The notes under the pieces: generated by a model
Seen by the model: only the letters and a program-made list of their open reading frames with translations
Database searches by the model: none
What the model was told of the DNA's origin: nothing
DNA from: Spiribacter curvatus
Lineage (GTDB): Bacteria > Pseudomonadota > Gammaproteobacteria > Nitrococcales > Nitrococcaceae
Direction: 5' to 3'
Assembly (NCBI RefSeq): GCF_000485905.1
Contig: NC_022664.1
Location: 1,364,001-1,428,000 of the forward strand
DNA: 64,000 nt
In this document: positions 13,626 to 22,451 of the stretch, piece by piece
How the letters are laid out: each line of letters starts with the position of its first letter
How positions within the stretch are numbered: the first letter of the stretch is position 1
Translations under genes and position numbers: made by a program

Positions 13626-14342
13626 TCAGTGGTCGGGCAACCGCCATAAAGCGATGATATCCACTATAAATGAATAGCTGAGCAGTACCAGCAGGGCAGC
13701 GGCCAGAGGCGGCACCCACAACGCCGGAAACCCGGGGGCCAGGAAAACCGCCAGGCTGATCGCCTGAATCCCACAGACGATACGCCGTCGCTGGGACGCG
13801 GGCAGTGGCTGGCGCAGCGACGGGCGCCAGCGGCCGGCGAGGATGAAGCCGTAGCGCCAGGCGCCGATCGCCAGCACCCAGACGCCGGCGAGGCCGAGCT
13901 GGAAGATCCACAGCGTGAGCACCAGCAATAGCACCGCGTCCAGCTCCATATCGAAGCGGGCACCCGCCGCCGTCGCACAATCGAGTCGGCGCGCAACCCA
14001 TCCATCAAGGGCATCCAGCAGGACCGCCGTTATACCCAGCGCGAACGGCAGTGCTGGCTCGGCCGGCAGCGCCCCGGCCGAGGGCAGCAGCCCAATCAGC
14101 AGCATGACCAGCAGACCGCGCCCCATGGTCACCCGATCAGCCGGGGTCAGGGGGCGGTTACCACGCTGGCGCCAGACCATCAGTGCCATCGCGGCATAGG
14201 CCACCAGGGCAAGAACCATGACGCCCGCTGGCAGATCGAGCACCCGTTGCAGGCCACCCGCGGCCGCTGCCAGCACAATGGCGGCGACAAGGAAATCAGG
14301 GAGAATCTGTAACGGCGACTCGTCGGTCTCAGGGGGAACCAA
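13626..14342 (-). CDS. CDP-alcohol phosphatidyltransferase family membrane protein
   Basis: An integral membrane enzyme with about six hydrophobic segments and the complete CDP-alcohol phosphotransferase signature: D-x2-DG-x2-AR-x8-G-x3-D-x3-D, running from LDALDGWVARR to FDMELD (near residues 120-145). Relatives join a CDP-linked lipid to an alcohol, making phosphatidylglycerophosphate, phosphatidylserine or similar. The acceptor cannot be told here. I chose TTG 14342 because GGAG lies seven bases upstream; an ATG at 14522 would run through the divergent dehydrogenase start and code for an uncharacteristic, arginine-rich segment. It heads the operon with the YceI-like and patatin genes. Confidence 0.82.
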   Translation of the reverse strand: MVPPETDESPLQILPDFLVAAIVLAAAAGGLQRVLDLPAGVMVLALVAYAAMALMVWRQRGNRPLTPADRVTMGRGLLVMLLIGLLPSAGALPAEPALPFALGITAVLLDALDGWVARRLDCATAAGARFDMELDAVLLLVLTLWIFQLGLAGVWVLAIGAWRYGFILAGRWRPSLRQPLPASQRRRIVCGIQAISLAVFLAPGFPALWVPPLAAALLVLLSYSFIVDIIALWRLPDH

Positions 14343-14402
14343 TGCTACGCTCCGGCTATCCGATCGGTTTCTCCGAATTCTAGCAGCACAGGGGACAATC
14401 AC

Positions 14403-15380
14403 GTGGTGACGGACGGGCAGAGCAGCTGGGCTTTCTGGATCACGCATCCAGGCGTAGGCGCCCTTCGGGCAGAAACGGTCAGCCAGCCCCAGGCGGGGGA
14501 GCTCGGCATCCGCACGCTCCACTCCGGGATCAGCCGCGGCACCGAATCGCTGGTCTGGCAGGGGCGGATCCCCGAGAGTCAGTACGAGCGGATGCGCGCG
14601 CCGTTTCAGGCGGGCTCATTCCCGGCGCCGGTCAAATACGGCTACGCCAGCGTCGGCGTCGTCGAGGCCGGACCCGATGCGTGGCAGGGGCAGACCGTAT
14701 TCTGTCTCTATCCCCACCAGAGCCGCTACACGGTGCCGGCGGCCGCCGTCCAGCCACTGCCCACAGGACTGCCAGCGGAACGCGCCATTCTCGCCGCCAA
14801 TACCGAGACTGCGCTGAATATCTGCTGGGATGCCGCCCCGCGGGCCGGCGAGCGAATCAGCGTGATCGGTGCGGGCGTCGTCGGTGCGCTGACAGCCGCC
14901 CTGTGCGCGGAAATGCCAGGTACCGAGGTGGAGTTGGTGGATATCAACCCGGCCCGTCGCACCCTCGCCGATCCGCTGGGGGTCGATTTCGCCCACCCGG
15001 ACGGCGCCCGCCGCGGCAACGACCGGGTCATCCACGCCAGCGGCAGCGAGGACGGTCTGGCCCTTGCGCTGGGAGTCGCCGCCGATGAGGCCACCCTGGT
15101 CGAGGCGAGTTGGTTTGGCGATCGCCATCCCCGCGTCCCGCTGGGCGAGGCCTTCCACTCCGGCCGCCTGACGCTGCGGGGCAGCCAGGTGGGACAGATC
15201 CCGCCCGCCATGCGAGCGCGCTGGACCTACGCCCGGCGCCTGGGCAAGGCGCTGGCGTTGCTCGCCGGGCATCCCCAATGGGACTGCCTGATCGATGGCG
15301 AAACAGCCTTCGACCAACTCCCCGAGGCGATGGCCGACATCGTCAACGGCTCGGGGCTCTGTCATCGCGTTAACTACTGA
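14403..15380 (+). CDS. BchC-like zinc-independent MDR dehydrogenase
   Basis: A 325-residue oxidoreductase of the medium-chain dehydrogenase fold. The N-terminal GroES-like part has LHSGISRGTESLVW and KYGYASVGVV; the Rossmann part has IGAGVVG (near 155) and a diagnostic acidic end VELVDIN. The usual catalytic-zinc cysteine is replaced by the Ser of GISRGTE, the pattern of bacteriochlorophyllide dehydrogenase BchC and relatives. No photosynthesis genes are nearby, so a different substrate is likely. It heads the plus-strand cluster with the pterin-synthase-like, glycosyltransferase and methyltransferase genes. The start is one of two consecutive GTG codons, with GGGG upstream. Confidence 0.8.
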   Translation: MVTDGQSSWAFWITHPGVGALRAETVSQPQAGELGIRTLHSGISRGTESLVWQGRIPESQYERMRAPFQAGSFPAPVKYGYASVGVVEAGPDAWQGQTVFCLYPHQSRYTVPAAAVQPLPTGLPAERAILAANTETALNICWDAAPRAGERISVIGAGVVGALTAALCAEMPGTEVELVDINPARRTLADPLGVDFAHPDGARRGNDRVIHASGSEDGLALALGVAADEATLVEASWFGDRHPRVPLGEAFHSGRLTLRGSQVGQIPPAMRARWTYARRLGKALALLAGHPQWDCLIDGETAFDQLPEAMADIVNGSGLCHRVNY

Positions 15381-15389
15381 GGAGTCAGC

Positions 15390-15794
15390 ATGTACAGCGT
15401 CAACGTCCGCGACCACTTCATGATCGCGCACAGCTTCCAGGGTGAGACATTCGGGCCCGCGCAGGCCCTTCACGGCGCCACCTACGTCACCGACGCAACG
15501 TTCTTCCGCGATCGGCTCGACGCCGATAATGTGGTGGTCGACATTGCCCGCGCCACGGACGTCCTGCACCGGATACTGGGCCGCTATAACCTGACCAATC
15601 TCGACACCCTTCCGGCGTTCGAGGGCGTGAACACCACCACCGAGCATCTCGCCCGACACATTGCCGATACGCTCGCCGGCGCCATTCATGACGGTGAGCT
15701 CGGCGAGACGGCGCGCACGCTGGACCGGATCCGCATTACGCTGCATGAATCGCATATCGCCTCGGCGGCCTACGAGCGTCCGCTGCAGCCGTGA
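15390..15794 (+). CDS. 6-pyruvoyltetrahydropterin synthase-like protein, atypical active site
   Basis: A 134-residue protein with the tunnelling fold of 6-pyruvoyltetrahydropterin / 6-carboxytetrahydropterin synthases (PTPS/QueD). FMIAHSF supplies the first zinc His (H14), NTTTEHLARHIA and LHESHIASAAYE match the pterin-binding half, with the anchoring Glu kept. The HGH zinc pair reads HGA (H28, A30), and the position of the catalytic Cys four residues before H28 is Ala. The Asp-His dyad of QueD is also not apparent in GRYNLTNLD. It may therefore not perform standard PTPS or QueD chemistry. GAGGAG precedes the ATG. It is coupled to the next gene through a GTGA overlap. Confidence 0.83.
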   Translation: MYSVNVRDHFMIAHSFQGETFGPAQALHGATYVTDATFFRDRLDADNVVVDIARATDVLHRILGRYNLTNLDTLPAFEGVNTTTEHLARHIADTLAGAIHDGELGETARTLDRIRITLHESHIASAAYERPLQP

Positions 15795-16867
15795 GCGACT
15801 GCCACTTCCTGGTACCCGGCGCGCTGGCGCGACCCACCGGCGGCAGCCGTTACGACCGGACCATCATCGCCGGGCTGCGCGCGGCGGGACGCTCGGTGTG
15901 GGTGGATGAGCTGCCCGGCCGGTACCCCGACGCCGATGCGACCGCCCGCCAGGCCGTGGCCACCGCGCTGTCAAGGCTCCCGTCGGGGCAGCGGGTCATC
16001 GTCGATGGCTTGGTGCTGGGGGGGCTTGAGCGCGTATTCGCCAGGCACGCCGGGCGGCTCCGCGTTGATGCATTGATCCACCACCCGATTGCCGATGAGA
16101 CCGGCATCGAGGCCGATCGCGCGCGGCAGTGGATCACCGACGAAGCCCGGGCGATCGCCCTGGCTGAGCGGGTCATCACCACCAGCGCATTCACCGCGCA
16201 ACGCCTCAGCGCACTCGGTATCCATGACGGTGGCGTTCACGTTGTGCCGCCGGGCTGCACACCCCGCCCCCTCGCCGCTGGTTCGCCCGGTGACACCCCC
16301 ACGCTGCTCTGCGTCGCCTCACTGACCCCACGCAAGGCGCAGCATCACCTGCTCAATGCCCTCTCCCGGCTCGTCGACCGACCATGGCATTGCCGACTGG
16401 TGGGCACGACCGATCTCAATCCGGATTATGCCGCGGCGATTGCTGCACAACGCGATCGGCTGGGCCTTGCCGATCGCGTCGAGCTCTGCGGCGCCATCGA
16501 TCACCAACAGCTCGACGCGGCCTATCGGGCGGCCGATCTGTTCATCCTGCCCTCGGTCTACGAGGGCTTCGGGATGGTGATCAGTGAGGCGGTCGCCTAC
16601 GGTCTGCCCATCGTCACCACCACTGGGGGAGCGCTGGCTACCACCCTCCCGCCGGGCGCGGGTATCGCCGTTCCACCGGATGACGTCGAGGCACTCACCA
16701 CCGAGCTGGCGGAGCTGCTCGATCGTCCCGAACGGCGGCAGGGGCTGGCCCGCGGCGCTCGACATGCTCGCAATCAGCTCAACGACTGGGATCAGAGCAT
16801 CGCCGATTTCATCGATATCCTGGAGGAGGATCCACCATGCCCGAGCGATTCCCGGCCAGCTGGCTGA
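15791..16867 (+). CDS. Glycosyltransferase family 4 (GT-B)
   Basis: A 358-residue GT-B glycosyltransferase. The C-terminal donor domain shows VHVVPPGC, LLCVASLTPRKAQHHLL and the E-x7-E motif in LFILPSVYEGFGMVISEA (near 250-270), followed by the nucleotide-sugar pocket GLPIVTTTGGA. This is typical of retaining GT4 enzymes using NDP or GDP sugars. No membrane segment is visible, so it acts in the cytoplasm or at the membrane surface. The GTG start overlaps the pterin-synthase-like stop, and its last 31 bases overlap the methyltransferase start. Its place between these genes suggests it glycosylates the cluster's product. Confidence 0.87.
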   Translation: MSDCHFLVPGALARPTGGSRYDRTIIAGLRAAGRSVWVDELPGRYPDADATARQAVATALSRLPSGQRVIVDGLVLGGLERVFARHAGRLRVDALIHHPIADETGIEADRARQWITDEARAIALAERVITTSAFTAQRLSALGIHDGGVHVVPPGCTPRPLAAGSPGDTPTLLCVASLTPRKAQHHLLNALSRLVDRPWHCRLVGTTDLNPDYAAAIAAQRDRLGLADRVELCGAIDHQQLDAAYRAADLFILPSVYEGFGMVISEAVAYGLPIVTTTGGALATTLPPGAGIAVPPDDVEALTTELAELLDRPERRQGLARGARHARNQLNDWDQSIADFIDILEEDPPCPSDSRPAG

Positions 16868-17692
16868 CGCTCCGCGAGCCGGCCGATCATGCGGCTCCCC
16901 CCCCCCGCCCCGGAGCCGGCCGATCATGCGGCTCGCGCCGACGATCTCGCCGAGATCCTCGCCGCATTCCTGCCGACGGATCGGTCTGTCACCATCGCCG
17001 ATCTCGGCGCGGGGGCCGGCAGCAATCTCCGCTACCTTGCCCCGCGACTGCCACAGCGCCAGCAGTGGACACTCATCGACCATGACACCGAGCTGCTCGA
17101 ACGTGCCGTGGCGGCCGCCCCCACTGATGCAAGCGCCAGTGACACGCGCGTCCTTGCCCGTGCCCATCCAGCGGAGCTGGCCGGTTTCCCCGACTGTCTG
17201 CCGGAGACACCGGATCTGCTCACCGCCTCGGCCCTGCTGGATCTTGTCTCCGAGGACTGGATGCGGCGGGTCGTGGATATCTGCTGCCAGCGGCGTATAC
17301 CGGCACTGTTCGCCCTGAGCGTGGATGCTCGACTGTCGCTCGCACCCGCCGTATCAGGCGATCAGCTCGTCGAGGCCGCGGTACTCACCCATCAGCGTGG
17401 ATCGAAGGATATGGGACCGGCGCTGGGACCGGACGCCAGCGCCCTCGCGGCCCGACTGTTTGCCGAGCGCGGGGCACAGGTCGACTGTCGCCGGAGTGAC
17501 TGGCGGCTCGGCCCCGAGGAGGCCTCACTCCAGCGACTCCTCATTGAGGGCTGGCACCAGGCCGCCCGCGTGCAGCGCCCCGACGCCACCGAGACCATCG
17601 ATCACTGGCTGAACGAACGGCTGCGGTTGCTCGAGCGAAGCGACATCCGCGTGGGTCATCAGGACCTGCTGGCTATCCCGTGCCGCGACTGA
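16837..17692 (+). CDS. SAM-dependent methyltransferase, frameshifted at a poly-C tract
   Basis: A class I methyltransferase: the downstream frame carries motif I IADLGAGAGSN, then WTLIDHD and LLTASALLDLVS. The natural start is probably ATG 16837, with GGAGGA upstream, giving MPERFPASWLTLREPADHAA. A run of ten C (16897-16906) then throws it out of frame and it stops at 17085. With nine C the frame continues into the methyltransferase domain to 17692 (284 residues). In the present sequence only an internal ATG at 16889, without a good Shine-Dalgarno, opens the domain frame (267 residues). It may be phase variable, mutated or a base-calling error. It lies between the glycosyltransferase and the UPF0104 gene. 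Confidence 0.75.
16876..16934 (+). repeat. 22-bp direct repeat pair enclosing a C10 tract
   Basis: The same 22 bases (starting gagccggccgatcatg) occur at 16876-16897 and 16913-16934, a period of 37 bases, with the ten-C run between. The unit encodes EPADHAA twice. Because 37 is not a multiple of three, the extra copy shifts the frame; loss of one unit, like loss of one C, restores a full methyltransferase reading frame. Confidence 0.9.
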
Positions 17693-18561
17693 TCCGGCTG
17701 CTGATCAGTCTGCTGATCCTTGGCTTCATCGCCGAGCGGTTCGGTGCCGGGGTACTCGAGCAACTCCAGCAGGTGGACGGGCGCTGGCTTGTCGCCGGCC
17801 TCCTGATCACCGTCGCCCAGGTCCTGCTATCGGCCTGGCGATGGCGGTTCACCGCGGCGCAGCTGGCAGTGCCGCTGCGCCCCGGCGTCGCGGTCCGTGA
17901 GTACTACCTGGCGACATTGGTCAATCAGATACTGCCCGGCGGTGTTGTCGGTGATGCCCAGCGTGCCTGGCGTCACAGTCACAATACGCCCCGTCGTGGC
18001 CCCGCATTCCAGGCCGTTGTGATCGAACGCTTCTCGGGGCAGCTGGCGATGGTCGCGCTGGCGCTGGTGGTCTGGGGGTATTGGCGCCCAGGCGGGGCAC
18101 TGGCGTTACCGGACGCCTGGTTCACCGGGGCAGTTGCGCTGATGGGTGCCATCGGCGCCGCATTCGCCGCCTTGGCACTGATCACCGGATGGCGCCCGCA
18201 CTGGCTGATCGACTGGTGGCAGGCACTGCGCTGCGCACTGCTGGCGCCGCGTGTTCTGCCCATTCAGCTGATCGCCTCCATCCTGGTGGCGGCCAGTTAT
18301 ATTGGTGTCTACGCAACCTGTGTGCTGTCACTGGCGCCGGAGTCGTCGCCCGCGACCTGGTTGCCGCTGATCCCGCTGGTGCTGTTTGCGATGTTGATCC
18401 CGGCGAGTATCGCCGGCTGGGGATTACGGGAGGGCGCTGCAGCCGTCCTCTGGCCACTCGCCGGCCTTCCGGCGGCGGAAGGTGTCAGTGCTGCCGTTCT
18501 CTACGGGGCCTTGTCACTGGTCGCGAGTACACCCGGCCTGATCGCCGTCATGCGCCATTGA
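17680..18561 (+). CDS. UPF0104 / lysylphosphatidylglycerol synthase-type membrane protein
   Basis: A 293-residue integral membrane protein with about seven or eight hydrophobic segments spread over the whole chain. The family motifs are visible: LISLLILGFIAERF at the start, YYLATLVNQILPGGVVGDAQRA (near 68-90) and VIERFSGQLAMVAL (near 110). It matches the flippase-like transmembrane half of MprF without the synthase domain. Such proteins are thought to move lipids or lipid-linked molecules across the membrane. The start is GTG 17680, overlapping the methyltransferase stop by 13 bases; the last 14 bases overlap the convergent RibD-like gene. It may export or flip the cluster product. Confidence 0.83.
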   Translation: MPRLIRLLISLLILGFIAERFGAGVLEQLQQVDGRWLVAGLLITVAQVLLSAWRWRFTAAQLAVPLRPGVAVREYYLATLVNQILPGGVVGDAQRAWRHSHNTPRRGPAFQAVVIERFSGQLAMVALALVVWGYWRPGGALALPDAWFTGAVALMGAIGAAFAALALITGWRPHWLIDWWQALRCALLAPRVLPIQLIASILVAASYIGVYATCVLSLAPESSPATWLPLIPLVLFAMLIPASIAGWGLREGAAAVLWPLAGLPAAEGVSAAVLYGALSLVASTPGLIAVMRH

Positions 18562-19372
18562 AGTCGAGCCGATAGAGTCGATCCGCTCCCAGCGCGAAGG
18601 GCTCGACGGTGGGCCGCCACGCCTGGTCCATATGGTCGATCGTCGGCAGGTTCAGCCCTGTTGGACCCGAGCCGATGATCACCGGCGCCACGACCAGGTA
18701 GAGCGAGTCCACCAGGCCTGCCGCGAGCCATGCCGAGACGGTCTGCGCGCCTCCCTCCACCAGCAGGCGGCGGATACCTGCCGCGGACAGACACTCCAGC
18801 ACCGCTGCCGGTGACCCATCCAGGAGCGGAAAATGTCGATCCACCGGCGGCGCTGTGGCGGTCGGGGGGGTCACCGCCCAGGTCGGCGCGGCGCCATCCA
18901 CGAATACATGCCGATGGGGGGTTAGATGATCGCGGCTGATCACGACCACGCGCGTCGGGTTGGGACCGCTGACCGCCCGGACCGTCAGCTGTGGGTCATC
19001 GGCGACGACCGTTCCGGCCCCGACCAGCACCGCGTCGCAGAGCGCCCGAAGGCGGTGCAGATGGACCCGGTCAGCCTCGCCGGTGACGTAGCGTGAGTGG
19101 CCGCTTGGAGTGGCGATCCGGCCGTCCAGGCTCTGTCCGAGTTGGGCAACGACCCGCGGCCGCCCCGTCACCGGACGGGTCAGAGGGGCGTAGCGGGCGC
19201 TCAGCGCAGCGTCGATCGCAGGGGCCGACAGACCGGCCACATCCGCTGGTTCCAGACATTGCGCATCGGCCGCGACCGATCCGCCGATGGCCTGACCCCG
19301 ACACTGGCGGATGAGCGCCGGCCAGACCGTCTCTGGCCGCTGCCCCGTTCCTGAAACGTCTTTTTGTGCCAT
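18548..19372 (-). CDS. RibD C-terminal-type (dihydrofolate reductase-like) reductase
   Basis: A 274-residue protein with the reductase fold of RibD: VVAQLGQSLDGRIAT (near 73-87), ALCDAVLVGAGTVVADDPQLTVR and LLVEGGAQTVSAWL. In riboflavin synthesis this domain reduces the ribosylamino-pyrimidine intermediate with NADPH. There is no deaminase domain; instead an N-terminal stretch of about 65 residues has no clear motif. It is divergent from the RibA-type gene across 62 bases and convergent with the UPF0104 gene. It probably reduces a pyrimidine or pterin intermediate made from GTP. The annotated ATG lacks a clear Shine-Dalgarno. Confidence 0.83.
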   Translation of the reverse strand: MAQKDVSGTGQRPETVWPALIRQCRGQAIGGSVAADAQCLEPADVAGLSAPAIDAALSARYAPLTRPVTGRPRVVAQLGQSLDGRIATPSGHSRYVTGEADRVHLHRLRALCDAVLVGAGTVVADDPQLTVRAVSGPNPTRVVVISRDHLTPHRHVFVDGAAPTWAVTPPTATAPPVDRHFPLLDGSPAAVLECLSAAGIRRLLVEGGAQTVSAWLAAGLVDSLYLVVAPVIIGSGPTGLNLPTIDHMDQAWRPTVEPFALGADRLYRLDFNGA

Positions 19373-19434
19373 ATTGGCGGAATTGTTACAGGCCTGGACG
19401 GTCTATTGCGAGAAATCGTCTTCAAGGAGCAGGC

Positions 19435-20547
19435 ATGCAGCGCATCCGGCGCGCACTGATCGATCTCAGGCGGGGCGAACCCGTTCACTTGGCGCATCCG
19501 GCCGGCGGAATGCTGATACTGGCGCTCGAGAACCTGAGCGACGCATTGCTGGGCCGCGCGCGAACGCTCGCCGCCGGCGACCCCTACCTGCTGATCACGC
19601 GACACCGCGCCCATGCAATGGGTCTGGATGACGGCGACCGTCATGATCTGGCCATGACATTGGATGCCGATCATCCCGTTGAGACCGCCATCGAGCTCGC
19701 GAGCGATCAGGCCGACTCGCCGGTGGACCGGGGCAGCCGGGCCGCCGAAGCCGCTGAGCAGGAGGCCCTCAACCTTGCCCGACAGGCGACGCTGCTACCG
19801 GCGCTGGTCGCCATCGCCACCGGCGAGGAAGACGCACGGCTCAATGACGAGATCGGGCGCGGCGAGGTCCTCTCCATCGAGATAACCGATATTCATAGCG
19901 CATGCATCGAGAACGCTCGACAGCCTGAGCGTATCAGCGAGGCACGCGTGCCGTTGGCGGATGCGGAGCAATCACGATTCATTCTCTACCGCGAGGCGGA
20001 CGGCCTGCTCGAGCATGTGGCACTGATTGTCGGCGATCCCACGCAATGGCCGGACACCCCTGCCCTGCGCATGCACTCCGCCTGTCTCACCGGCGATCTG
20101 TTCGGTTCGCTGCGCTGCGACTGCGGCGAGCAGCTCAGAAGCGCGGTGGGGACGATCGCCGACGAAGGCGGGGGTATCCTCCTCTACCTCGCCCAGGAGG
20201 GTCGCGGCATTGGTCTCGCCAATAAGCTCCGCGCCTATGGCCTGCAGGACACCGGACTGGACACCGTTGACGCCGATCGGCTGCTTGGCTTCGGGGCGGA
20301 TGAGCGCCGTTACGAGGTAGCGGCTGCGATGCTGGACGACCTCGGCATCGATCGGGTTCGGCTGATGACGAACAATCCCGGCAAAATCGCCGCGCTGGAG
20401 CGTCACGGCATTGAGATCGCGGGGCGCGAGGCGATTCATGGCGCACTCAACCGACACAACCAACGCTATCTGACCACCAAGGCCGAGCGGGCCGGCCACT
20501 GGCTGGAAGAGGTGATCACCGGTACCGCCGATCGCCACTCGCGCTAG
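19435..20547 (+). CDS. ribA: GTP cyclohydrolase II (RibA type) with an extra N-terminal domain
   Basis: GTP cyclohydrolase II opens GTP and releases formate and pyrophosphate, giving the diaminopyrimidine that starts riboflavin and some pterin routes. The C-terminal 200 residues are canonical: zinc cysteines in MHSACLTGDLFGSLRCDCG, then LAQEGRGIGLANKLRAYGLQ and MTNNPGKIAALERHGIEI. The N-terminal 170 residues lack the acidic active-site motif of RibB and look like a degenerate or unrelated domain. ATG 19435 has AAGGAG five bases upstream; an in-frame ATG at 19366 would run into the divergent RibD-like start. It could serve riboflavin synthesis, the local cluster, or both. Confidence 0.87.
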   Translation: MQRIRRALIDLRRGEPVHLAHPAGGMLILALENLSDALLGRARTLAAGDPYLLITRHRAHAMGLDDGDRHDLAMTLDADHPVETAIELASDQADSPVDRGSRAAEAAEQEALNLARQATLLPALVAIATGEEDARLNDEIGRGEVLSIEITDIHSACIENARQPERISEARVPLADAEQSRFILYREADGLLEHVALIVGDPTQWPDTPALRMHSACLTGDLFGSLRCDCGEQLRSAVGTIADEGGGILLYLAQEGRGIGLANKLRAYGLQDTGLDTVDADRLLGFGADERRYEVAAAMLDDLGIDRVRLMTNNPGKIAALERHGIEIAGREAIHGALNRHNQRYLTTKAERAGHWLEEVITGTADRHSR

Positions 20548-21353
20548 GCGCGCGGCTGCGGCGCCGATAGTCGTGCCAGCGGGAACTGCGCCGTCTCGGT
20601 CAGAACGCGTGCCAGCGATTCGGCGTAATGGGCCGCGAGTTCTCCGCCCAGCGCGGCGTCGCCAGCCCGCGCATCACCCGCCACGCCGGTCCGATTCAGA
20701 TCACCCGCCAACCAGGCGAACCGTGCCGGGCGCGTCTCTGCACCAATCCATTTGAAAGCCGCGAGCGCATCATACTCGATCGAAACGGCATGATCGGCCT
20801 GTTGGTCCGCCACCTGTGTTGGTGCGAAGTGCCGCATCAGCGCCGTCTCCAGCGCACCGCCATGCAGGCCCTCCCGCGCCTCACGGGCGCTGATCGCATC
20901 GACGGGGGGTGGAAAATCGAAGTAGCAGGCCTTCACGACCAGTAGCCCGAGATCCCGGCGCAGCCGCAGCGCTGCGGTGTCCATCGCGGCGAGATTGCCA
21001 CCATGGGCGGAGAACATCACCAACCGACGGAATCCCGATCGTGCCACAGAGGCTCCGATGTCATAGAGCATCGCCTCGAAGGTCGCCGGCTCCAGCGCCA
21101 GGGTCCCTGGAAAGCCCGCATGCTCGATACCCTGGCCAACGTTGAGTGTCGGCAGGCGCAACACCGACCCACCGCCCGTGCAGCGCTCGATCGCGGCCAT
21201 CGACAGGCCCTCAGCAATACAGGCATCCGTCGACAGCGGCAGATGCGCACCGTGCTGTTCGACCGCACCCAGCGGCAGCAGGGCGACCGCGTCGTTACCA
21301 CTGGCGCTGGCCAGTGATTGCGTGGTGTGATCCGCCCACTCCGCGGTGGTCAT
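20544..21353 (-). CDS. Creatininase family amidohydrolase
   Basis: A 269-residue protein of the creatininase superfamily. The metal-binding motifs are intact: LPLGAVEQHGAHLPLSTDA (Glu, His and Asp ligands), FSAHGGN and LHGGALETALM. Members hydrolyse cyclic or linear amides, including creatinine, and the formyl group of formylamino-pyrimidines in archaeal flavin and F420 synthesis (ArfB). Next to a GTP cyclohydrolase gene, the second type of reaction is an attractive guess only. ATG 21353 overlaps the uracil-DNA glycosylase stop as ATGA. The end overlaps the ribA-type gene by four bases, convergent. Confidence 0.83.
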   Translation of the reverse strand: MTTAEWADHTTQSLASASGNDAVALLPLGAVEQHGAHLPLSTDACIAEGLSMAAIERCTGGGSVLRLPTLNVGQGIEHAGFPGTLALEPATFEAMLYDIGASVARSGFRRLVMFSAHGGNLAAMDTAALRLRRDLGLLVVKACYFDFPPPVDAISAREAREGLHGGALETALMRHFAPTQVADQQADHAVSIEYDALAAFKWIGAETRPARFAWLAGDLNRTGVAGDARAGDAALGGELAAHYAESLARVLTETAQFPLARLSAPQPRA

Positions 21354-22030
21354 GCCAGCGTCTCCAACCGATCCAGCCGTGCCGCCAGTAGCCCGGGAAA
21401 GTGTTTGAACCAGGTCGCGTTGAGCGGCGAGGGATGTGGCAGCGGATGCAGTGTCAACCGGCGGAGTGTGCCATCGGGGCCGCGGTAATCGAGGCATAGC
21501 GACTGCTCGAAACGGTCCTCGCGCTGCCAGTACTGTTGCAGTTGCTCACGGACCGCCGCCGTCTGGCCAAGACCGAACCAGAAAAAGGCTTCCCGGCCGA
21601 GCGTGATGACGTCGCTACCGTTCCACAGCTCGAGGAGAACGTCGGCGACCAGTGGTTGGAAGCGTCGCTTCACCGCCATCGGCCAGGCCTTGTTGCCCAG
21701 TGGTTTGTAGGGAACAGTATTGGCCCAGAAGTAGGGAGCACCCGCAGCGAGGGCATCGCGGGTTCCATTCATCTCGCCGCCGTGATGACGCTGAAACAGC
21801 ACCCGCCGCACCTGCCGGCCGCCCGCGCCGATGAATGGAACCCCGACATGGATCTCGTCCCGACCCGGGTCCCGGCCGAAAAAGGCGATCCGGGCATCGG
21901 CCGGCCCAAGTCCGAAAATCGGCTCGGTGGGTTGCCGGCCAGCGGCCTCGTAGACGGCTTCATCACGCCCGGCGAGGCCCTCCGAGGCGCTCTGGAACCG
22001 CTCCATCAGAGCGGTGGGGAGATCGCGCAT
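21350..22030 (-). CDS. Uracil-DNA glycosylase family protein
   Basis: A 226-residue member of the uracil-DNA glycosylase superfamily. The GLGPADARIAFFGRDPGRDE block and PFIGAGGRQVRRVL (residues about 30-65) resemble the uracil-binding motif region, and TLHPLPHPSPLNATWFKHFP (near 195-215) carries the HPSPLN catalytic-loop motif. It should remove uracil from DNA to start base excision repair. It starts one base after the stop of the upstream hypothetical gene and is coupled by ATGA to the creatininase gene. Confidence 0.82.
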   Translation of the reverse strand: MRDLPTALMERFQSASEGLAGRDEAVYEAAGRQPTEPIFGLGPADARIAFFGRDPGRDEIHVGVPFIGAGGRQVRRVLFQRHHGGEMNGTRDALAAGAPYFWANTVPYKPLGNKAWPMAVKRRFQPLVADVLLELWNGSDVITLGREAFFWFGLGQTAAVREQLQQYWQREDRFEQSLCLDYRGPDGTLRRLTLHPLPHPSPLNATWFKHFPGLLAARLDRLETLA

Positions 22031-22031
22031 T

Positions 22032-22451
22032 TCAGTGCACGGTCGCCTGGCGCTCGCGGGTTTCCTTGAGCACGCCGACAACGTCTTCCTCCCAGCTCTT
22101 GGCGAGGGGGGACTGCGCAACCAGCGCCGAGACTTCGTCCGCACTGACCGGGTCGCCGCCGTCGTCACCCACGGCAAGCCGGGAGTGATCCCGGTCACGG
22201 AGCTCGTAGGCACGCTCGCCGCTGTCGCCATCGCCGACCCGCAGGGTGATCTCGTCGGCGTCGACGATTGCCCGCCAGTTGACCTGCGCCATCCAGCCAC
22301 GGGCGTTGGAGTACAGAGACACGCCGGCGAGCTCATGGCCGCTGCCGCGTTGATTGTCCATGACGTGGACGCTGCTCGAGAGGTGCTCGAATGGGTTGTC
22401 TTCGAGGATCTGCAGGAGCTCTTTTTTGGGAATGACGGCCTCTGCTCGCAT
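22032..22451 (-). CDS. Hypothetical protein
   Basis: I do not recognise this 139-residue protein. It is soluble, acidic, begins MRAEAVIPKKELLQ and has a glycine- and aspartate-rich middle (IVDADEITLRVGDGDSGERAYEL) that could be beta strands. No membrane segment or catalytic motif is seen. ATG 22451 has AGGTGG five bases upstream; in-frame ATGs at 22493, 22490 and 22481 would extend it without such a signal. It is the first gene of a minus-strand run with the uracil-DNA glycosylase and creatininase genes, and is divergent from proQ. Confidence 0.65.
   Translation of the reverse strand: MRAEAVIPKKELLQILEDNPFEHLSSSVHVMDNQRGSGHELAGVSLYSNARGWMAQVNWRAIVDADEITLRVGDGDSGERAYELRDRDHSRLAVGDDGGDPVSADEVSALVAQSPLAKSWEEDVVGVLKETRERQATVH

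Follow-up and report, generated by a model that had tools for sequence, protein, structure and literature searches.

A conserved gene cluster around a PTPS-IV protein in Spiribacter curvatus points to a dedicated pathway for a GTP-derived, possibly pterin-type and envelope-directed glycoside

A 64,000-nucleotide stretch of Spiribacter curvatus DNA (contig NC_022664.1; hereafter the window) contains nine genes gathered around a PTPS homologue of the subfamily PTPS-IV, and this set of genes very probably forms one pathway. The evidence consists of the gene families and their conservation, their co-occurrence across genomes, gene fusions, and an importer located where PTPS-IV and its partner dehydrogenase are missing in one bacterial family. 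The opening of GTP is the probable source of the product; whether the core of that product is a pterin could go either way, and its lipid-linked transfer to the envelope falls a little short of an even call. As an outline only, we propose one dedicated three-stage pathway yielding a GTP-derived, probably pterin-type glycoside that in most lineages is brought to the envelope via a phospholipid-linked step, a reading for and against which we find the evidence about balanced. A first-pass annotation, made from the letters alone, had named eight of the proteins and read them as a single functional unit; all eight are there and belong to the families named, co-occurrence, synteny and fusions bear out the unit, and its interpretation overall is partly supported.

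The core of the cluster is a run of five plus-strand genes (14403-18561) encoding a medium-chain dehydrogenase (ADH), PTPS-IV, a GT4-type glycosyltransferase, a methyltransferase (MT) and a UPF0104 membrane protein. These are tightly coupled, as first described, with a 4 bp overlap between PTPS and GT4 and a 13 bp overlap between methyltransferase and UPF0104. A RibD-type reductase (RibD_C), a RibA-type GTP cyclohydrolase II and a creatininase-family protein do follow, with RibD_C and creatininase on the minus strand and RibA on the plus strand, and this interleaving on opposite strands makes a single transcript with the first five genes impossible. The ninth core gene, missed in the first-pass annotation, encodes a CDP-alcohol phosphatidyltransferase (PGT; 13626-~14348, minus strand) and lies directly upstream of ADH in divergent orientation. 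No riboswitch scored above the gathering threshold in the window and 12 loci, where four tRNAs were the sole matches.

The cluster is widely distributed and its central pair is strictly shared. Among 397 evenly drawn Pseudomonadota genomes, PTPS-IV (E <= 1e-25) was present in 32, covering 22 of 232 genera, and the ADH profile (E <= 1e-40) matched the identical 32 genomes and none of the other 365, making this the most constant pair tested (Fisher p ~7e-48, uncorrected for relatedness). PTPS-IV was also found in 9 of 246 genomes of the phylum of Streptomyces. A scan of GTDB genomes gave at least 578 confirmed stretches encoding PTPS relatives in several phyla, the best 80 of which include Actinomycetota (Thermoleophilia among them), Gemmatimonadota, Acidobacteria, Myxococcales and alpha-, beta- and gammaproteobacterial records. 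In addition, 20 plasmid records match PTPS at E 1e-15, and plasmid unnamed1 of Rhizobium sp. SL42 (L201) carries, by its own annotation, eleven families contiguously in the order sulfatase, UPF0104, FkbM methyltransferase, PGT, RibA, ADH, PTPS, GT4, MT, RibD and cytochrome b. On a Methylosinus trichosporium plasmid, an ATP-binding cassette (ABC) transporter (ATPase and permease, L202:13366-14846) adjoins the RibD-family gene. The possibility raised at first pass that homologues might co-occur only among close relatives is thus not what was found, since PTPS-IV and ADH are shared by 32 genomes and recur in other phyla and on plasmids.

Gene neighbourhoods were sampled from the best 80 of the at least 578 stretches and 40 further loci, 2 of which duplicate earlier contigs. 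In 101 neighbourhoods, window included, that reach at least 5 kb to either side of PTPS, a count that took in genes up to 8.5 kb away, with family models built from those very loci, found ADH in 101, GT4 in 100, MT in 94, PGT in 80, RibD_C in 78, UPF0104 in 69, RibA in 65 and creatininase in 50, with all nine genes together in 29. In 91 of the 101, ADH immediately precedes PTPS and is read in the same direction. Several of the families are also fused into single open frames, namely GT4 with MT in 7 loci, PGT with an LtaS-like protein in 4, and creatininase with RibD_C in 1, a 566-residue frame in the Gemmatimonadota contig L083. The GT4::MT fusions agree with the earlier proposal that glycosyl- and methyltransfer work together. 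The best solved relatives of the GT4 protein include D-inositol-3-phosphate glycosyltransferase and phosphatidylinositol mannosyltransferases; comparison of the predicted methyltransferase model with known folds pointed to no substrate. A second GT4-family copy lies a few kb downstream of creatininase in four Amycolatopsis loci (L054, L071, L104, L106).

The first-pass annotation had assigned the membrane step to UPF0104 as an exporter or flippase. UPF0104 does track PGT over the 101 loci (68 loci have the two together, 20 lack both and 13 have a single one of them, which is UPF0104 in 1), and the envelope side involves more than a flippase, comprising also PGT itself and an LtaS/GacH-like phosphotransferase. 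The CDP-alcohol phosphotransferase motif D2DG2AR8G3D3D is intact in all 94 PGT-family reading frames. The LtaS-like protein, a membrane protein with a sulfatase-type domain, is encoded near PTPS in 28 of the 101 neighbourhoods. A model of the family member in L150 (mean predicted local distance difference test score, pLDDT, 79) matches LtaP, LtaS and GacH with Z 20-22 over ~260-290 residues, and E242, S290, D480 and H481, which we take from LtaS to be the metal site, are invariant in 16 rows, so that the family resembles these phosphoglycerol transferases in both fold and metal-site residues; a sequence search of the PDB at E 0.01 gave no match. LtaP, LtaS and GacH transfer phosphoglycerol from phospholipid. 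The LtaS-like family occurs in 24 of the 397 Pseudomonadota genomes, 18 with and 6 without PTPS-IV, and PGT accompanies it in all of these but G417 (23 of 24) and occurs in none of 34 tested genomes that have no LtaS-like gene.

Genes for periplasmic glucan synthesis recur alongside. The LtaS-like gene of the window's genome (C1:1273990-1275540) is divergent from an opgH-family (periplasmic glucan synthase) gene, a pair located at L188:9927-13505 (G000:C1 ~1.274-1.278 Mb), and the two genes are a few kb apart in G017 (L189) and G026 (L190) as well. OpgH-type genes lie inside the PTPS loci in 16 of 121 cases, two duplicates counted, and the two that were scored pass the curated MdoH cut-off. 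In PTPS-IV loci without PGT, opgH/mdoH often sits in its place, divergent from ADH (L125, L127, L129-L131, L135, L138, L140, L141, L202:7079-8881). PGT and the LtaS-like enzyme go together and are in most cases linked to the PTPS cluster, and genes of glucan synthesis recur as neighbours.

On the cytosolic side, the window RibA keeps the zinc cysteines (CLTGDLFGSLRCDCG) and the equivalent of E. coli Tyr105 (RAYGLQD), residues whose roles we assume from the known enzymes, and passes the GTP cyclohydrolase II model NF001591 with 232 bits against 148. It is colinear with the RibBA of the same genome, and its RibB-like N-terminal half is degenerate, without the acidic stretch of the operon copy. 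Alanine occupies the position of E. coli Arg90 (LAQEGRGIG), and Ala, Asp or Asn is found there in each of the 26 cluster RibAs that come from outside Actinomycetota. For RibD_C, PF01872 is the sole Pfam match; it has no N-terminal deaminase domain and does not qualify as a bifunctional RibD, a longer form of which is present in the genome's rib operon. With no deaminase domain at this step, the product would keep the 2-amino-4-oxo pyrimidine pattern common to pterins.

A riboflavin-only reading was rejected, as a separate complete operon (glyA-nrdR-ribD-riboflavin synthase-ribBA-ribH-nusB-thiL) lies elsewhere in the genome; its genes were named from translations, with the RibD_C and GTP_cyclohydro2 matches from profile searches. 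The genome has three RibA-family genes, including a separate ribA (C1:1812405). Because the complete operon and this further RibA lie elsewhere, the cluster RibA and RibD_C are extra to riboflavin, which is what the first-pass annotation had supposed of the GTP-opening input, and they are not the organism's only riboflavin genes. The GTP cyclohydrolase half of the operon RibBA (L153:4322-5476; G000:C1 ~490.3-491.5 kb) is degenerate and its zinc-cysteine motif is gone, and the separate ribA presumably performs that step for the operon.

The window PTPS carries the FGPAQ signature of PTPS-IV (FGPAQALHGATY). FGPAQxLHGAT is matched by 104 of 121 cluster PTPS rows (2 of them duplicate contigs), the remaining 17 deviating solely at the Q or L position, and in all 121 HGAT replaces HGH. 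HGH is the motif of other PTPS subfamilies and FGPAQ the signature of PTPS-IV, according to one section of a 2017 study (PMC5445326). The protein is ~60% identical to Streptomyces coelicolor SCO6650, whose structure is solved (PDB 3d7j), and contains no cysteine. Compared with E. coli QueD, in which we take the catalytic residues to be Cys, Asp and His, with histidines binding zinc and a Glu anchoring the pterin, PTPS-IV replaces the catalytic Asp and His by Asn and Leu and has HGA for HGH, and the first His of the HGH motif and the Glu are retained in 14 aligned cluster proteins; PTPS-IV His14 was paired with the QueD zinc His by hand, the alignment program having placed it elsewhere. Given the missing Cys, the Asn/Leu replacements and HGA for HGH, the window protein is neither QueD nor a classical PTPS. 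A QueD (PTPS-I) identity was also rejected on the absence of a CxxxHGH motif and on a QueD model score of 35.5 bits against a cut-off of 89.25, and the signature contradicts the annotation on three plasmids that names the protein 6-carboxytetrahydropterin synthase of queuosine biosynthesis. For the ADH, identity as BchC itself was rejected at 44.2 bits against a curated cut-off of 291.25.

One alternative is that the cluster duplicates the supply of riboflavin, F420, folate or queuosine. In its favour, RibA and RibD_C belong to families of the riboflavin pathway, PTPS homologues serve folate and queuosine, and a 2016 review states, as unpublished work, that PTPS-IV acts in archaeal F420 synthesis (PMC5041015). 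Against such a role stand the complete rib operon, nine genes that include neither lumazine nor riboflavin synthase, the low QueD score, and the absence of CofD from 17 of 25 PTPS-IV genomes, the window's (G000) included. This last result rules out F420 as the role of this cluster; the CofD Pfam family has matches in E. coli and further control genomes too, so that a match is not proof of F420 and an absence is informative. We know of no riboflavin, F420, folate or queuosine pathway that needs a GT4 enzyme, a phosphatidyltransferase and a flippase, and consider a duplicate supply line very improbable.

A variant of the cluster occurs in one family. Six genomes of this family (f72) hold PGT and the LtaS-like gene, and five of the six have neither PTPS-IV nor ADH. 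In all four examined of these five, the gene order is cytochrome b, PGT, LtaS-like, UPF0104, ABC importer and GT4, with the NMT1/THI5-like importer sitting between UPF0104 and GT4 (L195:11045-14486, L194, L196, L198). Its binding protein is NMT1/THI5-like (PF09084), and ThiY and THI5, both named after a pyrimidine, are among its relatives of solved structure. G344, the sixth genome, does have PTPS-IV, and the corresponding site there holds no such importer; its genes are split between one site with RibA, ADH, PTPS, MT and RibD_C and another with PGT, LtaS-like, UPF0104 and GT4 (L137, L197). A search covering the binding protein only did not find it in 120 PTPS loci (L033-L152, two of them duplicates and some short) or in the G344 loci. 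The simplest reading is that in f72 a pyrimidine- or pterin-like compound is taken up instead of being made from GTP, and that GT4, PGT, UPF0104 and the LtaS-like enzyme act on the imported compound.

The pathway that we propose would begin in the cytosol, where RibA would open GTP to a formylamino- or diamino-ribosylamino-pyrimidinone phosphate, the creatininase-family protein would strip any remaining formyl group as BrbF and ArfB do, and RibD_C would reduce the ribosyl to a ribityl chain with the 2-amino-4-oxo pattern kept. ADH and PTPS-IV would next work as a pair. ADH might oxidise the 2'-hydroxyl to a 1-deoxy-ribulosyl intermediate, the same as the Amadori product of FolE; ring closure would turn this into a dihydropterin phosphate, on the side chain of which PTPS-IV could act. 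Reduction of C1' by RibD_C and oxidation of C2' by ADH would together equal the Amadori rearrangement, a FolE-independent route that is chemically attractive and not demanded by the data. In a second stage, GT4 would add a sugar and MT, sometimes fused to it, a methyl group. In a third, PGT would join the product, or a phospho-alcohol carrier, to a phospholipid, UPF0104 would move the lipid-linked product across the membrane, and the LtaS/GacH-like phosphotransferase would hand it to an envelope acceptor. Our best reading is that in most lineages, the window's included, the pathway passes through this phospholipid-linked step; in the 14 of 32 PTPS-IV genomes that have neither PGT nor the LtaS-like gene, the product may stay unlinked. 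That the entire chain holds exactly as written is doubtful.

Several observations weigh against this proposal. All of the reactions, like the pterin ring and the transfer through a lipid, are what we infer from the genes. FolE is present in all 25 genomes tested, which removes the need for a pterin route that bypasses it. PTPS-IV does not have the QueD catalytic Cys, Asp and His or one zinc His, and from its residues could be a binding protein. Neither RibD_C nor RibA lies beside PTPS in 7 of the 101 neighbourhoods; in one of these genomes (G454) RibD_C is elsewhere, beside a RibA that groups with cluster RibAs on the tree, and in another (G074) it is at a second place (L200) with PGT, an FkbM methyltransferase and an opgH-type gene. 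The comparison of the creatininase with ArfB, made at first pass, has a bacterial precedent in BrbF of Sinorhizobium, a creatininase-family formamidase that deformylates a GTP-derived formylaminopyrimidine; yet two more distant members failed to replace BrbF in that study (PMC9478397), and family membership is for that reason no proof of formamidase activity and the window protein, by analogy, a candidate only.

The creatininase is not obviously needed beside the window RibA, because this RibA retains the Tyr that an enzyme releasing formate should have. Among 71 cluster RibAs, 31 have Met, His or Gln at the Tyr105 position, and a creatininase anywhere within the locus, some loci being short, accompanies all 31 of these and 16 of the 40 with Tyr, the window among the 16. 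As the loss of Tyr is a single event on the RibA tree, the association is suggestive only and was dropped as independent evidence, and it leaves the window's combination of retained Tyr and creatininase unexplained. The window RibA was rejected as a formyl-retaining GTP cyclohydrolase II of the SCO6655 type, since Tyr105 is not replaced by Met. Nor does the RibA tree support independent recruitment of RibA lineages to the cluster. A first tree test rejected a single clade of cluster RibAs (p 4e-5) but had counted L171 and L175 as canonical although they are cluster-type; a cleaned test that left out these two, the divergent L177 and L098 no longer rejected it (approximately unbiased test, p-AU 0.208).

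The degenerate catalytic residues of PTPS-IV could also mean that no pterin is made, with the ribityl-aminopyrimidine phosphate from RibA and RibD_C as a head group that PGT joins to lipid and that is glycosylated, methylated and flipped, PTPS-IV acting in binding or as a chaperone. The ribityl phosphate would resemble the phospho-alcohols used by the family of PGT, PgsA joining glycerol-3-phosphate analogously, and, in f72 genomes without PTPS-IV, the importer belongs to the THI5/ThiY type, the named members of which work with a pyrimidine. This is improbable in view of the constancy of PTPS-IV and ADH (32 of 32 genomes), the retention in PTPS-IV of the Glu that anchors the pterin in QueD, and the absence of PGT from 14 of the 32 genomes that keep PTPS-IV.

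The envelope side raises the further question of whether two separate modules merely share a neighbourhood, with RibA, RibD_C, ADH, PTPS-IV, GT4 and MT making a soluble, cyanopterin-like glycoside and PGT, LtaS-like and UPF0104, sometimes by opgH/opgG, forming an unrelated, co-inherited envelope decoration. The same observations that count against our single pathway speak for this division: the LtaS-like gene and PGT are both absent from the same 14 of 32 PTPS-IV Pseudomonadota genomes, 5 of the 23 genomes that have the two genes together lack PTPS-IV and belong to a single family, and the LtaS-like gene of the window's genome lies ~102 kb away from the cluster, beside the opgH-family gene. 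On the other hand, GT4 sits with the envelope genes, not the pterin genes, in G344 and the f72 genomes, which links the pterin and envelope modules; 73 of the 80 loci with PGT have it in divergent orientation to ADH; and PGT and the LtaS-like gene are found near PTPS in Actinomycetota and Pseudomonadota alike. We therefore regard two separate modules as rather unlikely and retain the single pathway.

Parts of this system have been described before. PTPS-IV with PF00925 and PF01872 neighbours appeared in print in 2017 as AGeNNT cluster-node 62, with 561 sequences (PMC5445326), and shares with the present cluster the FGPAQ signature and both neighbour families. The section concerned gives these two neighbour families only, names PF00925 as FolE2 and puts forward no pathway; it does not mention GT4, MT, PGT, UPF0104, the LtaS-like gene or the importer variant. 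The earlier claim of an undescribed pathway accordingly stands for the product and the wider set and falls for the PTPS-IV/RibA/RibD_C association: no description of a product or of the nine-gene set was found in open-licence full texts, the scope of the search, with subscription papers and supplements outside it. New here are the GT4::MT, PGT::LtaS-like and creatininase::RibD_C fusions, the near-perfect co-occurrence of PGT with the LtaS-like gene, and the four genomes in which a THI5/ThiY-type importer takes the place of PTPS-IV and ADH.

The S. coelicolor relatives are close, although Streptomyces loci with the cluster RibA have Met at the position where the window keeps Tyr. Spoonamore et al. 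(2006) reportedly characterised the GTP cyclohydrolase II homologues of S. coelicolor and found that SCO6655 makes a formylated product; we know of no product of that locus. Pterin glycoside pathways such as those of cyanopterin and limipterin lead to GTP-derived pterins with sugars, and use FolE, not RibA. To our knowledge they include no phosphatidyltransferase or LtaS-like enzyme, and the solved tetrahydrobiopterin (BH4) glucosyltransferase matches the window GT4 weakly (E 3.7e-4), far below other GT4 matches. BrbF and the window creatininase share a family and, where the activity of BrbF was demonstrated, that of the window protein is a prediction; BrbF serves riboflavin synthesis and has marR and cobW homologues as neighbours, unlike the window gene (PMC9478397).

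Coordinates of the nine genes are given in Table 1. The PGT start (14348, GTG) was placed by comparison with relatives, and the RibA open frame begins at 19366 with the conserved start probably at 19435. For the creatininase, the start at 21353 chosen in the first-pass annotation is plausible. The longest creatininase frame shares its 5' end with a minus-strand gene (21350-22336) for a protein of the uracil-DNA-glycosylase superfamily, which passes the Pfam cut-off and scores far under those of NCBIfam.

Table 1. Core genes of the PTPS-IV cluster in the window, with the profile or model match for each
Gene product	Coordinates	Strand	Match
PGT, CDP-alcohol phosphatidyltransferase	13626..14348	-	PF01066 47.3 bits, cut-off 22
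ADH, BchC-like medium-chain dehydrogenase	14403..15380	+	PF00107 20.6 bits, below cut-off 31.8 (weak)
PTPS-IV, COG0720 subfamily	15390..15794	+	PF01242 74.7 bits, cut-off 22.4
GT4-type glycosyltransferase	15791..16867	+	PF00534 105.9 bits
MT, class I S-adenosylmethionine (SAM) methyltransferase	16889..17692	+	model pLDDT 94.9, methyltransferase fold
UPF0104 / LPG_synthase_TM membrane protein, flippase-like	17680..18561	+	PF03706 111.4 bits
RibD_C reductase	18548..19372	-	PF01872 136.6 bits
RibA-type GTP cyclohydrolase II	19366..20547, likely start 19435	+	PF00925 190.2 bits
Creatininase-family amidohydrolase, candidate formamidase	20544..21497 or 21353 start	-	PF02633 198.2 bits, cut-off 31.3

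Finally, the most extended form of our proposal, which we put forward tentatively and think unlikely to be right in full, is that a FolE-independent pterin or ribityl-pyrimidine is glycosylated, methylated, attached to lipid, flipped and transferred by the LtaS-like enzyme to envelope glycans, where it would serve as an anchored redox or light-absorbing cofactor with no known counterpart. The ligand of the f72 importer could reveal the core compound of the pathway. If the proposal is true, it would explain the orphan PTPS-IV subfamily, which has a structure without a function, would give a common role to orphan creatininase-family and RibD-family proteins, and would predict a GTP-derived compound at the cell envelope.

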